Origin: Oceanirhabdus seepicola | Lineage (GTDB): Bacteria; Bacillota; Clostridia; Clostridiales; Clostridiaceae | Direction: 5' to 3' | Length of the DNA: 64,000 bases | NCBI RefSeq assembly: GCF_023684385.1 | Contig: NZ_JAGSOJ010000001.1 | Coordinates: 1-64,000, forward strand | Shown here: piece by piece, positions 45,373 through 51,464 of the stretch | Position numbering within the stretch: position 1 is the first letter of the stretch | How the letters are laid out: each line of letters starts with the position of its first letter | Program-made: the position numbers and the translations under genes | Notes under the pieces: generated by a model | The model's input: only the letters and a program-made list of their open reading frames with translations | Told to the model about the DNA's origin: nothing | Databases searched by the model: none

Positions 45373-46110
45373 TTATAATCTTTCTTTAAATGTCTTTAAA
45401 AATTTATTCAAACTTTCATTTTTACTAAACATAATCTCTGTTGGTGTCCCTGAATATTCAATTTTTCCATCTTTCATGAAAATAATTCTATCTGATATTT
45501 TTAATGCAAATTCAATCTCATGTGTAACAATCAACATAGTCCTATTTTCAGCTGCAATTTCCCTTATCAAGTTTAATACTTCACCCACCAACTCAGGATC
45601 CAAAGCTGAAGTAGGTTCATCCAGCAAAAGCAATTTAGGTTCCATGGCTATCGCTCTTGCAATACCAACTCTCTGTTGTTGTCCACCTGATAATTGACTT
45701 GGATAATGGCTACTTCTATCTTTAAGGTTAACTTTTTCTAGAAGTTCTATAGCTTTTTCCTTTGCAAGTTCTTTATTTATCTTTTTAACAGATCTTAAAC
45801 CTTCCATTATATTCTCTTCAGCCGTCTTGTTATTGAAAAGGGCAAAACTTTGAAATACCATGGCTGTATTATTTCTTAAAAAACTGATTTCTTTTTTATC
45901 AGCTCTATTAAATCCAACTCTACTGTTATCTATTTCTATTGATCCTCCATCTGCTTTTTCCAGATAATTAATGCATCTTAAAAAAGTTGACTTTCCTGAT
46001 CCAGATGAACCAATTATTGAAACAACTTCCCCTTCTTCTACATCTAATCCAATATTCTTAAGAACTTCTATATCTCCAAAACTCTTTTGTATATTCCTTA
46101 TCTTAATCAT
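45373..46110 (-). CDS. tcyC: Polar amino acid (probable cystine) ABC transporter ATPase
   Basis: 245 residues. Walker A GSSGSGKST, signature LSGGQQQRVGIARA, Walker B LLLLDEPTSALDPE and H-loop THEIEFAL. Belongs to the GlnQ/TcyC class. Last gene of a three-gene operon with permease and binding protein. The Cys-rich leader peptide upstream points to cystine or cysteine as substrate. Confidence 0.9.
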   Translation of the reverse strand: MIKIRNIQKSFGDIEVLKNIGLDVEEGEVVSIIGSSGSGKSTFLRCINYLEKADGGSIEIDNSRVGFNRADKKEISFLRNNTAMVFQSFALFNNKTAEENIMEGLRSVKKINKELAKEKAIELLEKVNLKDRSSHYPSQLSGGQQQRVGIARAIAMEPKLLLLDEPTSALDPELVGEVLNLIREIAAENRTMLIVTHEIEFALKISDRIIFMKDGKIEYSGTPTEIMFSKNESLNKFLKTFKERL

Positions 46111-46121
46111 AAAGTCCCCCC

Positions 46122-46790
46122 TTAATAGGATTTATCCATTCGTGTCTCAATCATCTTCGTAACATAAGATATTAATATTGTAATTCCCCAGTATATTAAG
46201 CCTACAGCTAAAAAATTCTCGAAAAACTTATAACTAGCTGATGCACCAACTTTTGCTGATGCCATTATATCTTTTACACCTAAAATAAAAGTTATTGATG
46301 TTCCTTGAATCAAACTTATAAAAGTGTTACTCAATGGCGGAACAGCAATTCTCGCAGATTGAGGAATAATTATTCTTACCATTGCTTTAATTCTCCCCAT
46401 TCCAAGAGATTGTGCTGCCTCCATCTGATTTTTATGAACTGAATTCATAGCAGATCTAATTATTACAGACATATATGCTCCAGCATTTAAACTCATAACT
46501 ACAATTGACATTTCATAGGCTCCAACATTTGAAAATGATTCAAATAGTTGTGGTAATCCAAAATAAAAGATAAACAATTGAACCATTAAAGGAGTACCTC
46601 TAAAAAAAGATATATAAGTATCAATTATTAAATTAACATATCTACTTTTAACTTCACTTTTTATTATTGCTAAAACCATACCTATCATTATTCCAAAGAG
46701 CATAGCGAATACCGCTATACTCAAAGTAGTAGGTAAATACCTACCTATAACCAAAATTCTCTTTACAAAATAATTTATATCAAAACTCAT
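46122..46790 (-). CDS. tcyB: Polar amino acid (probable cystine) ABC transporter permease
   Basis: 222 residues with about five hydrophobic helices and the HisM/GlnP-type coupling motif around MEAAQSLGMGRIKAMVRIIIP. It would form a homodimeric channel. Gaps of 8 and 11 bases to its neighbours fit one transcript. Confidence 0.9.
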   Translation of the reverse strand: MSFDINYFVKRILVIGRYLPTTLSIAVFAMLFGIMIGMVLAIIKSEVKSRYVNLIIDTYISFFRGTPLMVQLFIFYFGLPQLFESFSNVGAYEMSIVVMSLNAGAYMSVIIRSAMNSVHKNQMEAAQSLGMGRIKAMVRIIIPQSARIAVPPLSNTFISLIQGTSITFILGVKDIMASAKVGASASYKFFENFLAVGLIYWGITILISYVTKMIETRMDKSY

Positions 46791-46798
46791 TTTCCCAC

Positions 46799-47590
46799 CT
46801 ACTTTTTGGTAATATCAATTGGGAACCACTTAAGAGATATTTCAGTTAAAGTTCCATCGTTCTTCATTTCTTTCATTACTTTATTAATCTCTTCCACAAG
46901 TTTTTCATTATCACTGTCTTTAACGAAAGGAAAGGCGTTTATCAGCTCCTGAATTGGTTCACCAGCTAATTTGATATTCAAGTCTGTTTCTTCTATTACA
47001 GTTAATCCTGAGAGCTTATCCATTAATACAGCATCAATTCTTCCTAATGATAAATCATGATATAATCCTGCTCCATCATATGTTACTATTTCGATTTCAC
47101 TATTCTTATCTAATTTTCTAATAATATTTTCATAATTTGATCCTAAACTAACACCTACTTTTTTCCCTTTCAAATCTTCTAATAATTTTATGGAATCATC
47201 ATCTTTATGTGATAGTAATTGAGCACCATAATACACATAAGCATCCGTAAAAATATATTTTTCTTCTCTTTCTTTTGTAACAGTAATCTGGTTTGCAATT
47301 GTGTTTAATTGTTCATTGTCCAACATTCCAAATAGCCCACTAAAATCAGCTCTTTTGAATTCTATTCCATAGTCAAGTCTTGAACCAATTTCTTTCCATA
47401 CATCAACATCAAAACCTTGTAATTCATCAACTTCATTTAAGAATGTATAAGGTTTATACCCACCACTCATACCAATTACGATTTTTTTGCTATCCTCTTT
47501 CTTTGCTACTTCACTGTTTTTTTTGCCACATGAAGCAACTCCTAATACCAATAGTACTGCCATTAATAAAACTAAACCTCTCTTTTTCAT
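46799..47590 (-). CDS. tcyA: Extracellular amino acid (probable cystine) binding lipoprotein
   Basis: 263 residues. Lipoprotein signal with lipobox GVASC near residue 21, then a family 3 solute-binding fold (GMSGGYKPYTFLNEVDELQG, FDVDVWKEIG; LKGKKVGVSLGSNYENII). It captures the substrate outside the cell. ATG after TTTAGGAGG. It follows the attenuator-like leader described at 47609-47831. Confidence 0.92.
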   Translation of the reverse strand: MKKRGLVLLMAVLLVLGVASCGKKNSEVAKKEDSKKIVIGMSGGYKPYTFLNEVDELQGFDVDVWKEIGSRLDYGIEFKRADFSGLFGMLDNEQLNTIANQITVTKEREEKYIFTDAYVYYGAQLLSHKDDDSIKLLEDLKGKKVGVSLGSNYENIIRKLDKNSEIEIVTYDGAGLYHDLSLGRIDAVLMDKLSGLTVIEETDLNIKLAGEPIQELINAFPFVKDSDNEKLVEEINKVMKEMKNDGTLTEISLKWFPIDITKK

Positions 47591-47608
47591 AAAATACCTC
47601 CTAAATTT

Positions 47609-47643
47609 AAAAATAAAAAAGGGATACCTAATTTAGGTATCCC
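47609..47643 (-). terminator. Attenuator terminator in leader of cystine transporter operon
   Basis: Minus-strand stem GGGATACCTA/TAGGTATCCC followed by TTTTTTATTTTT, placed between the Cys leader-peptide stop (47673) and tcyA (47590). The loop side, CTAAATTAG, could instead pair with CTAAATTTAG around the leader stop codon (about 47666-47676), giving an alternative fold. Confidence 0.85.
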
Positions 47644-47672
47644 GTATAAACATATGTTTTTACGCACTAAAT

Positions 47673-47771
47673 TTAGCTATACTTGTCTATTAAATTTTGA
47701 CAGGTACAGCAACAACATAGAGAAATAGATTTAATTTTATAATTTTTCATTGACGTAATTATTATTTTCAT
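47673..47771 (-). CDS. Cysteine-rich leader peptide
   Basis: Short reading frame of 32 codons, ATG at 47771 with AAGGAGG 7 bases upstream and TAA at 47673-47675. The middle reads ISLCCCCTCQNL: five Cys codons within six positions (47700-47717). It lies between a consensus promoter and an intrinsic terminator, directly before a cystine-type ABC transporter. This is the layout of a leader-peptide attenuator: with scarce Cys-tRNA the ribosome would stall on the Cys codons and leave the downstream RNA free to avoid the terminator. The peptide itself probably has no further role. Confidence 0.82.
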   Translation of the reverse strand: MKIIITSMKNYKIKSISLCCCCTCQNLIDKYS

Positions 47772-47802
47772 ATCCATTCCTCCTTTTTCGACTTATATTG
47801 AC

Positions 47803-47831
47803 ATTATATATGTAGGTCAATCCATTGTCAA
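47803..47831 (-). promoter_or_regulatory. Consensus vegetative promoter of leader/transporter operon
   Basis: Minus strand TTGACA (47826-47831), exact 17-base spacer, TATAAT (47803-47808): a perfect match to the housekeeping consensus. Strong constitutive initiation fits control by downstream attenuation. Confidence 0.9.
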
Positions 47832-47869
47832 TAACTAAATGAGATTTTCTCTCATTTAATATCACTTAT

Positions 47870-47894: not shown

Positions 47895-48030
47895 CTTAAC
47901 TTTCACTAATAGTGGAGCTTAGGCGTCAACATGTCAAACTTCGCTTGTTTGGTGATTTTCTTATTTGCAGTTCAATTTTGCATTTCGCCATTCAGAAGAT
48001 TTTGCTCATAAAAAGGCAAATAAATTTGTA

Positions 48031-48064
48031 ACATATCTCTCTTTTTTAAGATACTGTTGAAAAA
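48031..48064 (-). repeat. Inverted flanking repeat of the transposase-like gene
   Basis: Read on the minus strand: TTTTTCAACAGTATCTTAAA and on through AAAGAGAGATATGT. The same block occurs in the other orientation at 49702-49733 and 49786-49820 on the far side of the gene, so these repeats may be the ends of a mobile unit. Confidence 0.6.
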
Positions 48065-48157
48065 TATTTAACTTAATTTCTATATCAATGGACAAACCTA
48101 ATTATCATATTGTTTAGATACACTATTATTACACTACTACTTGCACACCCTTATCTC

Positions 48158-49513
48158 CTAAGCTGCAGTTACATAAATAGGCTTCCTGTCTTTGAAATCC
48201 TTTATAATCATACCAGTATACTTAGTGTGGCTCTCTAAAAACAAACACTCAGCCGCACTATGATTATTATCGTTACACTCCTCTGACTCTCCATCATAAA
48301 CCTTCTTCTCCTTCAGCCATCTATACCAATACAAATAATTAGTCAGATATTTACTAGATACTCCCTTAAAACTATTTAGCCAATTGTTTAACTCTCTTTT
48401 CATCCCCATAAGATTACCAACATGATATTCCTCATTATCATCACCAGTACAGCTCCTTCCTAATACCAACTCCATCTCCTGTGCAAATTGATGATAATGC
48501 CTATTTCCTTCTGTACACAAAATAGTCCCGACTGATATATTCTCACAGAATATTGTTTCTAACACACGCTTATCCACTCGTTTGTTATTACATGCCTCAA
48601 CTATGATATTGTTTCTCCTATCCACAGCACATACTACATAGTTAATCTTAGCTTTATCCTCATTGAAAATTAGTGTATATTTATTCTTAAAGCCACATCT
48701 TCTTCCTCTGTTAAATATCCCACGCTCCCCCTTCTTATTCCTATTACCTTTTATACTTTCAACTACAACCATATGCCCCATCTCAACTATCCCTCCCACA
48801 CAACCCGTTCCCATGTTTTCTCTCAAGCCATCCATTATCTTATGGCGCCAATAAAAGGCAGTGGCAATATTTATCCCTACTATGCGGCTACAATCACTTA
48901 ATGATAGCCCTCTCACCATACACTTCATATATTCAATCCATTTATCTATTCCCTTCTTACTACAATACATAGGCGATAAGGTTCTGTCACTGAATGTCTT
49001 TCCACACTCTTCGCTCTTGCATTTATATCTCTGCTTTCCTTGGTATTTACCATACTTCCAGATCTTCTTATATCCACAATGCGGACATACCCCACCCTCC
49101 ATGAATCTGCGCCCTCTTATACTATCTATTATTTCTTCCTCTTTACCCTGAACGTTCTCTATGTCAACCACCTTAATTATTCTCTCAAGAATTTTCAGCC
49201 TGCTAATCCTCTTCTCCTCTCTCCTAGCTCGCTCCTCAGCTTTCATTTGGTTTTCTTCGAACTTCTTTCTCTCCCTACTTCTGCTTATATTGACCATTTT
49301 CATTAGATTTGATTTTATCTCGTCGCTTAGGTTAGAGTCTAATACATTTTTCTCAAATTTATCCAAGAAGTCATCCTTATAATCATCTTTAAGATTTTCT
49401 TTAAGGTTTTCTTTAAAGTTTTCTTTAAATTTGTCTTTAACTCCATCCTTGATATCAACTTTTTTTTGATCATTTGAATCTTGGTTTCTATTTCTACTGA
49501 AAAAATAAGTCAT
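48158..49513 (-). CDS. IS1595-type transposase homologue lacking catalytic residues
   Basis: 451 residues. Zinc ribbon CPHC (C143, C146) with C165 and C170 (QRYKCKSEECGKTF), a helix-turn-helix region (LSDCSRIVGINIATAFYWRH), and an ISXO2-like fold ending FKGVSSKYLTNYLYWYRWL. Expected active-site motifs are altered: ADE is MGH at 245-247 (D to G246), CTD is CTE (E335), and the Asn of HVN is M369. The N-terminal ~110 residues are an extra Lys/Glu-rich coiled-coil part with degenerate KENLKEN repeats. The frame is open throughout. It may be a domesticated DNA-binding protein or an old transposase in decay. Confidence 0.75.
   Translation of the reverse strand: MTYFFSRNRNQDSNDQKKVDIKDGVKDKFKENFKENLKENLKDDYKDDFLDKFEKNVLDSNLSDEIKSNLMKMVNISRSRERKKFEENQMKAEERARREEKRISRLKILERIIKVVDIENVQGKEEEIIDSIRGRRFMEGGVCPHCGYKKIWKYGKYQGKQRYKCKSEECGKTFSDRTLSPMYCSKKGIDKWIEYMKCMVRGLSLSDCSRIVGINIATAFYWRHKIMDGLRENMGTGCVGGIVEMGHMVVVESIKGNRNKKGERGIFNRGRRCGFKNKYTLIFNEDKAKINYVVCAVDRRNNIIVEACNNKRVDKRVLETIFCENISVGTILCTEGNRHYHQFAQEMELVLGRSCTGDDNEEYHVGNLMGMKRELNNWLNSFKGVSSKYLTNYLYWYRWLKEKKVYDGESEECNDNNHSAAECLFLESHTKYTGMIIKDFKDRKPIYVTAA
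49391..49438. repeat. Four 12-bp tandem units inside the transposase-like gene
   Basis: Units of the form AAGGTTTTCTTT (plus strand) occur four times in a row and encode the KENLKENFKEN-like part of the coiled coil. Slippage here would change the length of the coil without breaking the frame. Confidence 0.75.
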
Positions 49514-49701
49514 AATTACTTACATACCTCCCATTTATACAAAATACTTATTCATATAGAACAGTTATTTGCACAAACATATTTTCGTATCCATTTATAA
49601 TTATGACCATTCCTTATTTTTATAATCATTCCACAACAAAAAATCTTTGAATTTTACCAAACTTAATCATTTGCCAGCTTGTACTCTACCGAGTCTAGCT
49701 A

Positions 49702-49820
49702 TTTCAACATCTTCTTAAAAAAGAGAGCTATGTTTAGAATTTAACTATCAATAGATTTTTACTGGTTGTCCTTTTCAACAATCCATTTTTTCAACATTTT
49801 CTTAAAAAAGAGATATATGT
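49702..49820 (+). repeat. Two direct copies of the flanking repeat
   Basis: TTTCAACATCTTCTTAAAAA continuing AGAGAGCTATGT (49702-49733) and TTTTTTCAACATTTTCTTAA continuing AAAAGAGATATATGT (49786-49820). Both are inverted relative to 48031-48064. The rest of the 500-base gap 49514-50013 has no gene; near 49840-49890 there is a short GC-richer patch with a CGGC/GCCG stem and a T-run. Confidence 0.6.
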
Positions 49821-49999
49821 CACTATTTTTTTCAATGTGTAGGGGCTACAGCCTGTCCGGCCTCAAACCTAAAAAGCCGTCCTTTTTTATTCACAGCAAA
49901 TATAATTGGTACAATTTACACAACCGTGCCACCTATTGTTATAAACCTAATTGCATTTGATTATTTCTTAAAAATATTTTCCAATTTTAAAGAAACTAA

Positions 50000-50078
50000 A
50001 AAAGCACCCCTTTTGAACTGCACCCCGTTTATTGGACATTGACAAAAAAATGTTACAATATTACAAAGGGGTGCTTTT
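50000..50078 (+). promoter_or_regulatory. Hairpin hiding the ribosome site of IS orfA in read-through RNA
   Basis: AAAAGCACCCCTTT (50000-50013), just outside the terminal repeat, is perfectly complementary to AAAGGGGTGCTTTT (50065-50078), which contains the orfA Shine-Dalgarno sequence. RNA started outside the element would fold this shut, while RNA started inside would not. A related AAGGGTGCTT lies just beyond the right end, so the element's true ends may include it. Confidence 0.65.
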
Positions 50079-50081
50079 ATT

Positions 50082-50561
50082 ATGGCAAAATATACAATGG
50101 AATTTAAATTAGAAGTAGTTAAATACTTTAAAGAAAACGGTAAGGCTGAAACGGTAAAGAAATATAATATATCAAACACCGCAATTTACAAATGGGAACA
50201 TTTATATGATACTTATGGGATAGAAGGTTTTAAAAGAAAAACCGTTAAAAAATATACTGTTGAAGAAAAGTTAAATATTATAGATTTTTATAAGAAAGAA
50301 GGTAAAATTTCAGTACAAAAAAAATATAACATTTCATCTACACTAGTTAACAACTGGGAACGTATTTTATTAGAACAAGGTGAAATTGGATTATCTAAAG
50401 ATAATCGTGGTCGTAAGCGTGAAAATGCCATTATGAAAGATGTTAATCAAAGTGAAGATTTATTAGCTGAAGTACAGCGCTTAAGAATGGAAAATGCCTA
50501 TTTAAAAAAGTTACATGCCTTGGTTCAGAAGCGGGAAAAGAAACAAAGAAAGAAAAAGTAG
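50082..50561 (+). CDS. IS3/IS150-type transposase OrfA
   Basis: 159 residues with two helix-turn-helix units (FKENGKAETVKKYNISNTAI and FYKKEGKISVQKKYNISSTL) and a C-terminal leucine-zipper-like helix (LLAEVQRLRMENAYLKKLHA). It recognises the element's ends. A canonical slippery heptamer A-AAA-AAG lies at 50504-50510 in frame, and a second G-AAA-AAG directly before the stop (50552-50558); either could give the OrfAB fusion. Confidence 0.88.
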   Translation: MAKYTMEFKLEVVKYFKENGKAETVKKYNISNTAIYKWEHLYDTYGIEGFKRKTVKKYTVEEKLNIIDFYKKEGKISVQKKYNISSTLVNNWERILLEQGEIGLSKDNRGRKRENAIMKDVNQSEDLLAEVQRLRMENAYLKKLHALVQKREKKQRKKK

Positions 50562-51409
50562 TTGCAATTACTGAATTAAGGCGTGAAAAAAAATTCAAGT
50601 TACAACCATTATTAGATATTGCTAATCTATCAAAATCAACGTATCATTACATTAAAAATTGCCTAGATCAGCCATCAAAATATGAATCTGTAAAAGAAAT
50701 AATCTTAGGGGTTTATAATAAACATAAAGGAAGATATGGGTATCGTAGAATCACTTTAACACTTAAGCTTCAATATGGTATGGTTATAAATCATAAAACG
50801 GTTCTAAAGTTAATGAGGGAACTCGGAATTGCAAGCAAAATTAGAGTTAAAAAGTATAAATCATATAAAGGCCAAGTTGGGAAAATAGCATCAAATGTTC
50901 TAAAACGAGATTTCTCAACAACAAGAGTAAATGAAAAATGGGTTACTGATATAACAGAATTTAAAATAGATAATAAAAAAATCTATTTATCTCCACTAAT
51001 TGATTTACACTCGAAGAGTGTTCTGAGCTACACCATAAGCACCACACCAAATTTAAAGTTGGTTACTGATATGCTTAATAAGGCTATTAAAAACACAGAC
51101 CTAGACGGTCTAATTATACATTCCGATCAAGGGTGGCATTATCAACACAAAAAGTACAGAGGAATATTAGAAAACTCAAATATTATACAAAGCATGTCTA
51201 GAAAAGGGAATTGTTTAGATAATTCATTAGCTGAAAACTTCTTTAGTCATTTAAAGTCTGAATTTTATTATTTAGAATCGTTTGATACTATTGATGACTT
51301 TATTAGAGGCCTCGATGAATATATTCAATACTATAATACCGAAAGGATTTCGAGTAAATTAAAAGGAATGACCCCTGTACAATACAGAAATCATTCCATT
51401 GCTGCTTAA
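50507..51409 (+). CDS. IS3/IS150-type transposase OrfB (DDE integrase, -1 frame)
   Basis: Read in the -1 frame relative to orfA; the frame is open from the slippery site, with no good start codon of its own until 50780. It contains the HTH_21-like region (GRYGYRRITLTLKLQYGM) and the rve integrase core with D in WVTDITEF, D in IIHSDQGWHYQ and E in NSLAENFFSHLKSE, so the DDE triad is intact. The C-terminus TERISSKLKGMTPVQYR is typical. The element appears potentially active. Confidence 0.85.
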   Translation, partial: KVTCLGSEAGKETKKEKVVAITELRREKKFKLQPLLDIANLSKSTYHYIKNCLDQPSKYESVKEIILGVYNKHKGRYGYRRITLTLKLQYGMVINHKTVLKLMRELGIASKIRVKKYKSYKGQVGKIASNVLKRDFSTTRVNEKWVTDITEFKIDNKKIYLSPLIDLHSKSVLSYTISTTPNLKLVTDMLNKAIKNTDLDGLIIHSDQGWHYQHKKYRGILENSNIIQSMSRKGNCLDNSLAENFFSHLKSEFYYLESFDTIDDFIRGLDEYIQYYNTERISSKLKGMTPVQYRNHSIAA

Positions 51410-51464
51410 TTATATATACTTATGTCCAACTTTTGGGGTTCAGTACATTTAAGGGTGCTTAAAA

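Follow-up and report, generated by a model that had tools for sequence, protein, structure and literature searches.

The locus and its leader region

The window analysed here comprises positions 1 to 64,000 of contig NZ_JAGSOJ010000001.1 of Oceanirhabdus seepicola (assembly GCF_023684385.1), and it holds an amino-acid ABC transporter operon of the tcyABC type preceded by a leader region, both on the minus strand (Table 1). Read 5' to 3' on that strand, from 47831 to 47591, the elements are ordered as promoter, AGGAGG, leader open reading frame (ORF), UAA stop codon (47675–47673), 29-nt spacer, terminator with six U residues, and the Shine-Dalgarno (SD) sequence and start of tcyA. A first-pass annotation, made from the letters alone, had described the transporter as cystine-type; the best models for the binding protein and the permease are indeed cystine models, matched below their cut-offs. 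The nearest solved structure to the tcyA-type protein is 9d5w, a YxeM-type substrate-binding protein of V. cholerae (50% identity, Z 33.8), and cysteine derivatives are therefore also possible as substrates. Cystine or cysteine is the probable import.

Table 1. Positions of the leader elements and operon genes in the window
Feature	Position	Strand	Remarks
Sigma-A-type promoter TTGACA-N17-TATAAT	47803..47831	-	12/12 consensus; kept in W0125-5
SD sequence AGGAGG of leader ORF	47779..47784	-	sequence; kept in W0125-5
Leader peptide ORF, 32 codons + stop (MKIIITSMKNYKIKSISLCCCCTCQNLIDKYS)	47673..47771	-	frame, length and Cys codons kept in W0125-5
Cys codons UGU UGU UGC UGU ACC UGU (leader codons 19-24), proposed sensor	47700..47717	-	
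1:2 hairpin GCUGUACCUGUC...GACAAGUAUAGC	47676..47710	-	Cys codons paired with leader ORF end; -11.8 kcal/mol
Antiterminator, GCUAAAUUUAGUG (leader end + stop) paired with CCUAAAUUAGGU of terminator	47626..47677	-	about -11.3 to -11.4 kcal/mol
Intrinsic terminator stem-loop GGGATACCTAAATTAGGTATCCC	47621..47643	-	10 bp; -14.4 kcal/mol
Terminator U tract TTTTTT	47615..47620	-	
tcyA-type substrate-binding lipoprotein	46799..47590	-	best NCBIfam PRK11260, cystine substrate-binding protein, 8.1e-56, below cut-off
tcyB-type permease	46122..46790	-	best NCBIfam PRK15100, cystine permease, below cut-off
tcyC-type ATPase	45373..46110	-	best NCBIfam PRK09493 (GlnQ) and PRK11264 (TcyN), below cut-offs

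An IS1595-like transposase insertion sequence with 46-nt inverted arms (48019–48064 and 49787–49832) occupies 48019–49832, and an IS3-like ORF pair marks a second insertion sequence at about 49960–51460. In O. seepicola, both separate the leader from an alpha-amylase gene; in Oceanirhabdus sp. W0125-5, the end of apparently the same amylase gene lies directly 5' of the leader.

The leader ORF was assigned to the second AUG (47771), after the first (47777, giving 34 amino acids) was rejected as lying too near the SD sequence. The ribosome site and the 32-codon frame with five Cys codons in six positions that the earlier reading had described are both present, the Cys codons being codons 19, 20, 21, 22 and 24. 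When the leader was shuffled 20,000 times with dinucleotides preserved, an ORF with five Cys in six codons never arose. The remaining short ORFs of the window all stay below four Cys in six codons; the cluster is not due to chance.

The promoter, likewise perfect as first described, has its -35 hexamer at 47831–47826 and its -10 hexamer at 47808–47803. No other exact match to TTGACA-N16-18-TATAAT occurs in the window, in which 0.17 would be expected, and transcription would begin near 47796. An inverted repeat, ATTGACA-N22-TGTCAAT (47797–47832), spans the promoter and may be an operator adding a second layer of control. Its arms are exact in both Oceanirhabdus genomes, and the motif occurs at this spacing at one locus only in each; W0125-5 also keeps both promoter hexamers, the spacer between them being just 24% identical. 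Firmicutes have cysteine repressors such as CymR, and one could suppose that a repressor bound to the repeat controls the promoter, the leader ORF being passive and the hairpin merely a partial terminator. That the arms stay exact around a promoter spacer altered at 76% of its positions would fit this. However, the left arm is at once the -35 box, and a repressor would explain neither the Cys cluster absent from every shuffle nor why the Cys run, the position of the stop and the alternative stems are kept 100–180 nt downstream. A repressor could also work alongside an attenuator rather than instead of it, and we regard repressor control with a passive leader as unlikely.

Alternative folds and the position of the ribosome

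The stem and T-run noted before the binding-protein gene form the terminator of Table 1, whose counterpart in W0125-5 has a stability of -13.4 kcal/mol as against -14.4 in O. seepicola; terminator-like sites are expected by chance 0.4 times in the 1.8 kb scanned. The pairing of CTAAATTTAG at the leader stop with CTAAATTAG in the terminator, also pointed out previously, exists within a larger alternative stem, the antiterminator, which encloses an inner hairpin CGUA-AAAC/GUUU-UACG. When the 29-nt spacer was shuffled, the sequestration of CCUAAAU was matched in 3 of 3000 shuffles for O. seepicola and 1 of 3000 for W0125-5; the antiterminator potential exceeds that of shuffled sequences. The 1:2 hairpin, which has the same pairs in both species, was equalled in stability by 25 of 3000 (O. 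seepicola) and 40 of 3000 (W0125-5) shuffles, and the count of its paired Cys bases is not unusual relative to shuffles. We propose from the modelled folds that it acts as a pause or protector hairpin.

To follow these folds during transcription, the growing transcript of both species was folded with a ribosome masked, using a general value of 14 nt past the A-site for the footprint, and the antiterminator probability was read at ..UAGGUAU, when all of the terminator but its CCC has been transcribed. With the A-site at codons 19–27 in O. seepicola, this probability was 0.34–0.72, falling to 0.14 at codon 28, and in W0125-5 it was 0.95–0.99 at codons 19–28. With the A-site at codons 30–33, up to the stop, it was 0. 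The dependence on ribosome position predicted by the first-pass annotation was thus found in both species, and a stall at the Cys codons favours the alternative fold in that the antiterminator is for the most part still present when the terminator is nearly complete. The antiterminator and terminator are mutually exclusive. Because the antiterminator's 5' strand begins about at the stop codon, it is predicted to be masked by a ribosome that has reached the stop and left exposed by one at the Cys codons. Once the last CCC is transcribed (full length), the terminator has a probability of about 1 in every ribosome state under equilibrium folding. Since the terminator wins at equilibrium in all states, the switch would have to be kinetic, that is, dependent on timing. 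In the trp leader of E. coli, too, the antiterminator is the less stable of the two structures.

Without a ribosome, the antiterminator probability at the same point was 0.02 in O. seepicola and 0.71 in W0125-5, intermediate between the values for a ribosome at the Cys codons and one at the stop. In these models, the 1:2 hairpin weakens the antiterminator without abolishing it; because the exclusion is incomplete, untranslated RNA may read through, chiefly in W0125-5.

All parts of a classical attenuator are present and in order: a short ORF with its own SD sequence and a run of regulatory codons lies close before the genes, and an intrinsic terminator stands between. We consider it probable that the leader is a ribosome-mediated transcription attenuator of the trp/his type that senses charged tRNA-Cys. 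In ample cysteine, a ribosome translating the leader would reach its stop codon and cover the RNA just behind it (AUUUAGUG), which would block the antiterminator, allow the terminator to fold and leave the transporter unmade. When charged tRNA-Cys is scarce, a ribosome stalled on the Cys codons would prevent the 1:2 hairpin and leave GCUAAAUUUAGUG free to hold CCUAAAUUAGGU as RNA polymerase crosses the U tract, and tcyABC would be transcribed. Ribosome-mediated attenuation, as first suggested, is thus supported by the masked-ribosome folds and by conservation of the elements in W0125-5, while promoter use, leader translation, stalling, read-through and regulation by cysteine are what we infer.

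The modelled folds would also suit a general sensor of translation stress, in which any slow ribosome, whether owing to an antibiotic or to low initiation, opens the operon irrespective of cysteine: stalls anywhere in codons 19–28 leave the antiterminator free, and it is partly free even without a ribosome. Yet five Cys codons in six fall exactly in that stall window, all of them kept, and the genes downstream encode a cystine-type transporter with homologues under Cys T-boxes, which makes a sensor without cysteine specificity highly improbable.

Conservation and distribution of the leader

Between the two species, the segment that begins with the Cys run and ends with the terminator is 94% identical, with 6 of 106 positions differing. 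Identity is 54% at the fourfold-degenerate sites in tcyABC, 52% in the sequence preceding the promoter and 74% in the interval between terminator and tcyA. The six changes spare the stop, the five Cys codons (all identical in W0125-5) and the pairing of the terminator and the 1:2 stem. One, in the 1:2 stem, turns ACC into ACA at an unpaired position, and another lies within the loop of the same hairpin. The stop codon changes from UAA to UGA with the position of termination kept, a C to U change lies inside the inner hairpin of the antiterminator, and each terminator arm carries one change that yields a G-U pair. Of the checks in relatives that the first-pass annotation proposed, conservation was borne out in the one relative with the element for the Cys run, the position of the stop and the two alternative stems; no double compensatory change was seen. 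Comparison of just two sequences from one genus accounts for this, and the pairing is supported by preservation rather than covariation. Structural conservation is also partly dictated by the peptide code.

Ahead of the Cys run, the leader has 7 amino-acid changes and no indel. Judged from the sequences, such a pattern fits an ORF that needs to be translated and in which the Cys codons would be the sole important residues. The final 16 residues are identical between both species, as would also be expected if the ORF encoded a functional small Cys-rich peptide, binding metal or active in redox reactions, that is co-transcribed with the transporter by coincidence; Clostridium genomes often encode small Cys-rich proteins, and several occur among the matches listed. 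However, the first half of the peptide is not conserved, conservation of the DNA extends beyond the stop codon and includes silent sites within the Cys codons, and the portion kept coincides with the base-pairing portion. A functional peptide is accordingly a very unlikely explanation, and the attenuator remains our preferred reading.

Distribution of the leader was narrow. A search of 207 Clostridiaceae genomes recovered it in O. seepicola and one other Oceanirhabdus genome only (E 6e-23 and 2e-23); no homologous leader was found in these family genomes beyond Oceanirhabdus, the next match (E 0.002) being unrelated. Scanning 84,980 species genomes gave one leader locus, that of the sister species Oceanirhabdus sp. 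W0125-5 (NZ_CP115913.1), which is the second genome of the family search. Cys leaders unrelated in sequence were sought upstream of 28 tcyA homologues outside Oceanirhabdus, with none found. The pattern of SD, ATG and Cys run was leader-like only at the O. seepicola locus itself across 391 genomes of the class, where the remaining matches were other reading frames or Cys/Arg-rich small proteins; in the 207 family genomes, those among the matches listed were mostly out-of-frame runs and Cys-rich small proteins. Within the two Oceanirhabdus genomes, no second Cys leader was present among the 30 of 99 Cys-run places checked in frame.

Known leader peptides and cysteine T-boxes

Several predicted systems resemble the Oceanirhabdus leader. 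In Rhodobacterales, the uORFC-8-2 motif that precedes cysS, a predicted ribosome-mediated attenuator (PMC8632094), is by its description also a short ORF with tandem Cys codons within a first stem and an intrinsic terminator as the second stem, but it belongs to alpha-proteobacteria, has two Cys codons and targets cysteinyl-tRNA synthetase. Leader peptides with Cys runs, later named polycysteine ORFs, have been predicted in Actinobacteria for cys operons of Mycobacterium and P. acnes and for cbs of B. longum (PMC1262725). As described, they too place a run of Cys codons within a short ORF that precedes cysteine genes; they differ in lineage and in having no conserved terminator hairpins, Rho-dependent termination having been proposed instead (PMC1262725). 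Within Firmicutes, His leader peptides predicted for hisS/hisZ paralogues of Bacilli replace T-boxes in the same gene family, in a study remarking that no regular leader peptides had been shown until then outside Proteobacteria and Actinobacteria (PMC2965389), and a Leu-rich attenuator peptide has been reported for the S. aureus branched-chain amino acid operon (PMC5794164). Both involve other amino acids, other genes and Bacilli rather than Clostridia.

Reports of ribosome-mediated attenuators in Firmicutes are rare, this work being done there by T-boxes. A T-box (RF00230), with its specifier loop and GGGUGGNACCGCG box, was sought at the leader, and the 64-kb window gave no Rfam match; elsewhere, each Oceanirhabdus genome has 27–30 T-box matches. 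Upstream of 6 of the 28 tcyA homologues in other Clostridiaceae genera (L006, L020, L023, L031, L032 and L033) lies an RF00230 T-box with UGC (Cys) in its specifier columns, which lends independent support to a cysteine role for the operon under the leader. Cys T-boxes resemble the proposed attenuator in sensing tRNA-Cys charging and acting through transcription antitermination, both at tcyA homologues and at cysK-cysE, and differ in binding the tRNA directly, without translation.

A rough regular-expression search had suggested loss of all Cys T-boxes in Oceanirhabdus; this was rejected when alignment identified UGC in the specifier columns of a T-box upstream of cysK-cysE in both genomes (L085 and L092). 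By this alignment, T-boxes appear not to have been replaced genome-wide. With a Cys T-box at cysK-cysE and the leader at tcyABC, a single genome seems to monitor the charging of tRNA-Cys in two ways; on this reading, T-boxes would serve biosynthesis and the leader peptide the ABC importer. A broader proposal, about which we are rather more doubtful than confident, is that the attenuator arose within one clostridial genus whose relatives use a Cys T-box, that two unrelated RNA mechanisms came to read tRNA-Cys, and that a ribosome parked at the stop is the main switch, with the Cys hairpin as modulator.

No report of a Cys leader in Clostridia was found in the literature searched. As far as that search extends, the mechanism is already known, and the lineage, the target and the coexistence with Cys T-boxes are new. 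If correct, the sensor was exchanged at one operon in one genus while cysK-cysE keeps its T-box, two mechanisms responding to one tRNA signal could be compared within one cell, and the question opens why leaders arise where T-boxes already exist.

Two further loci were observed. In W0125-5, a T-box with a UGC specifier (L088, 3,320,837–3,321,074) precedes a glutamate/dicarboxylate-family symporter that may transport cystine in the manner of TcyP and whose O. seepicola relative is only 24% identical. One tcyA homologue of another genus (L021) has a SAM riboswitch upstream, with neither T-box nor leader, which suggests a methionine transporter among the tcyA homologues.
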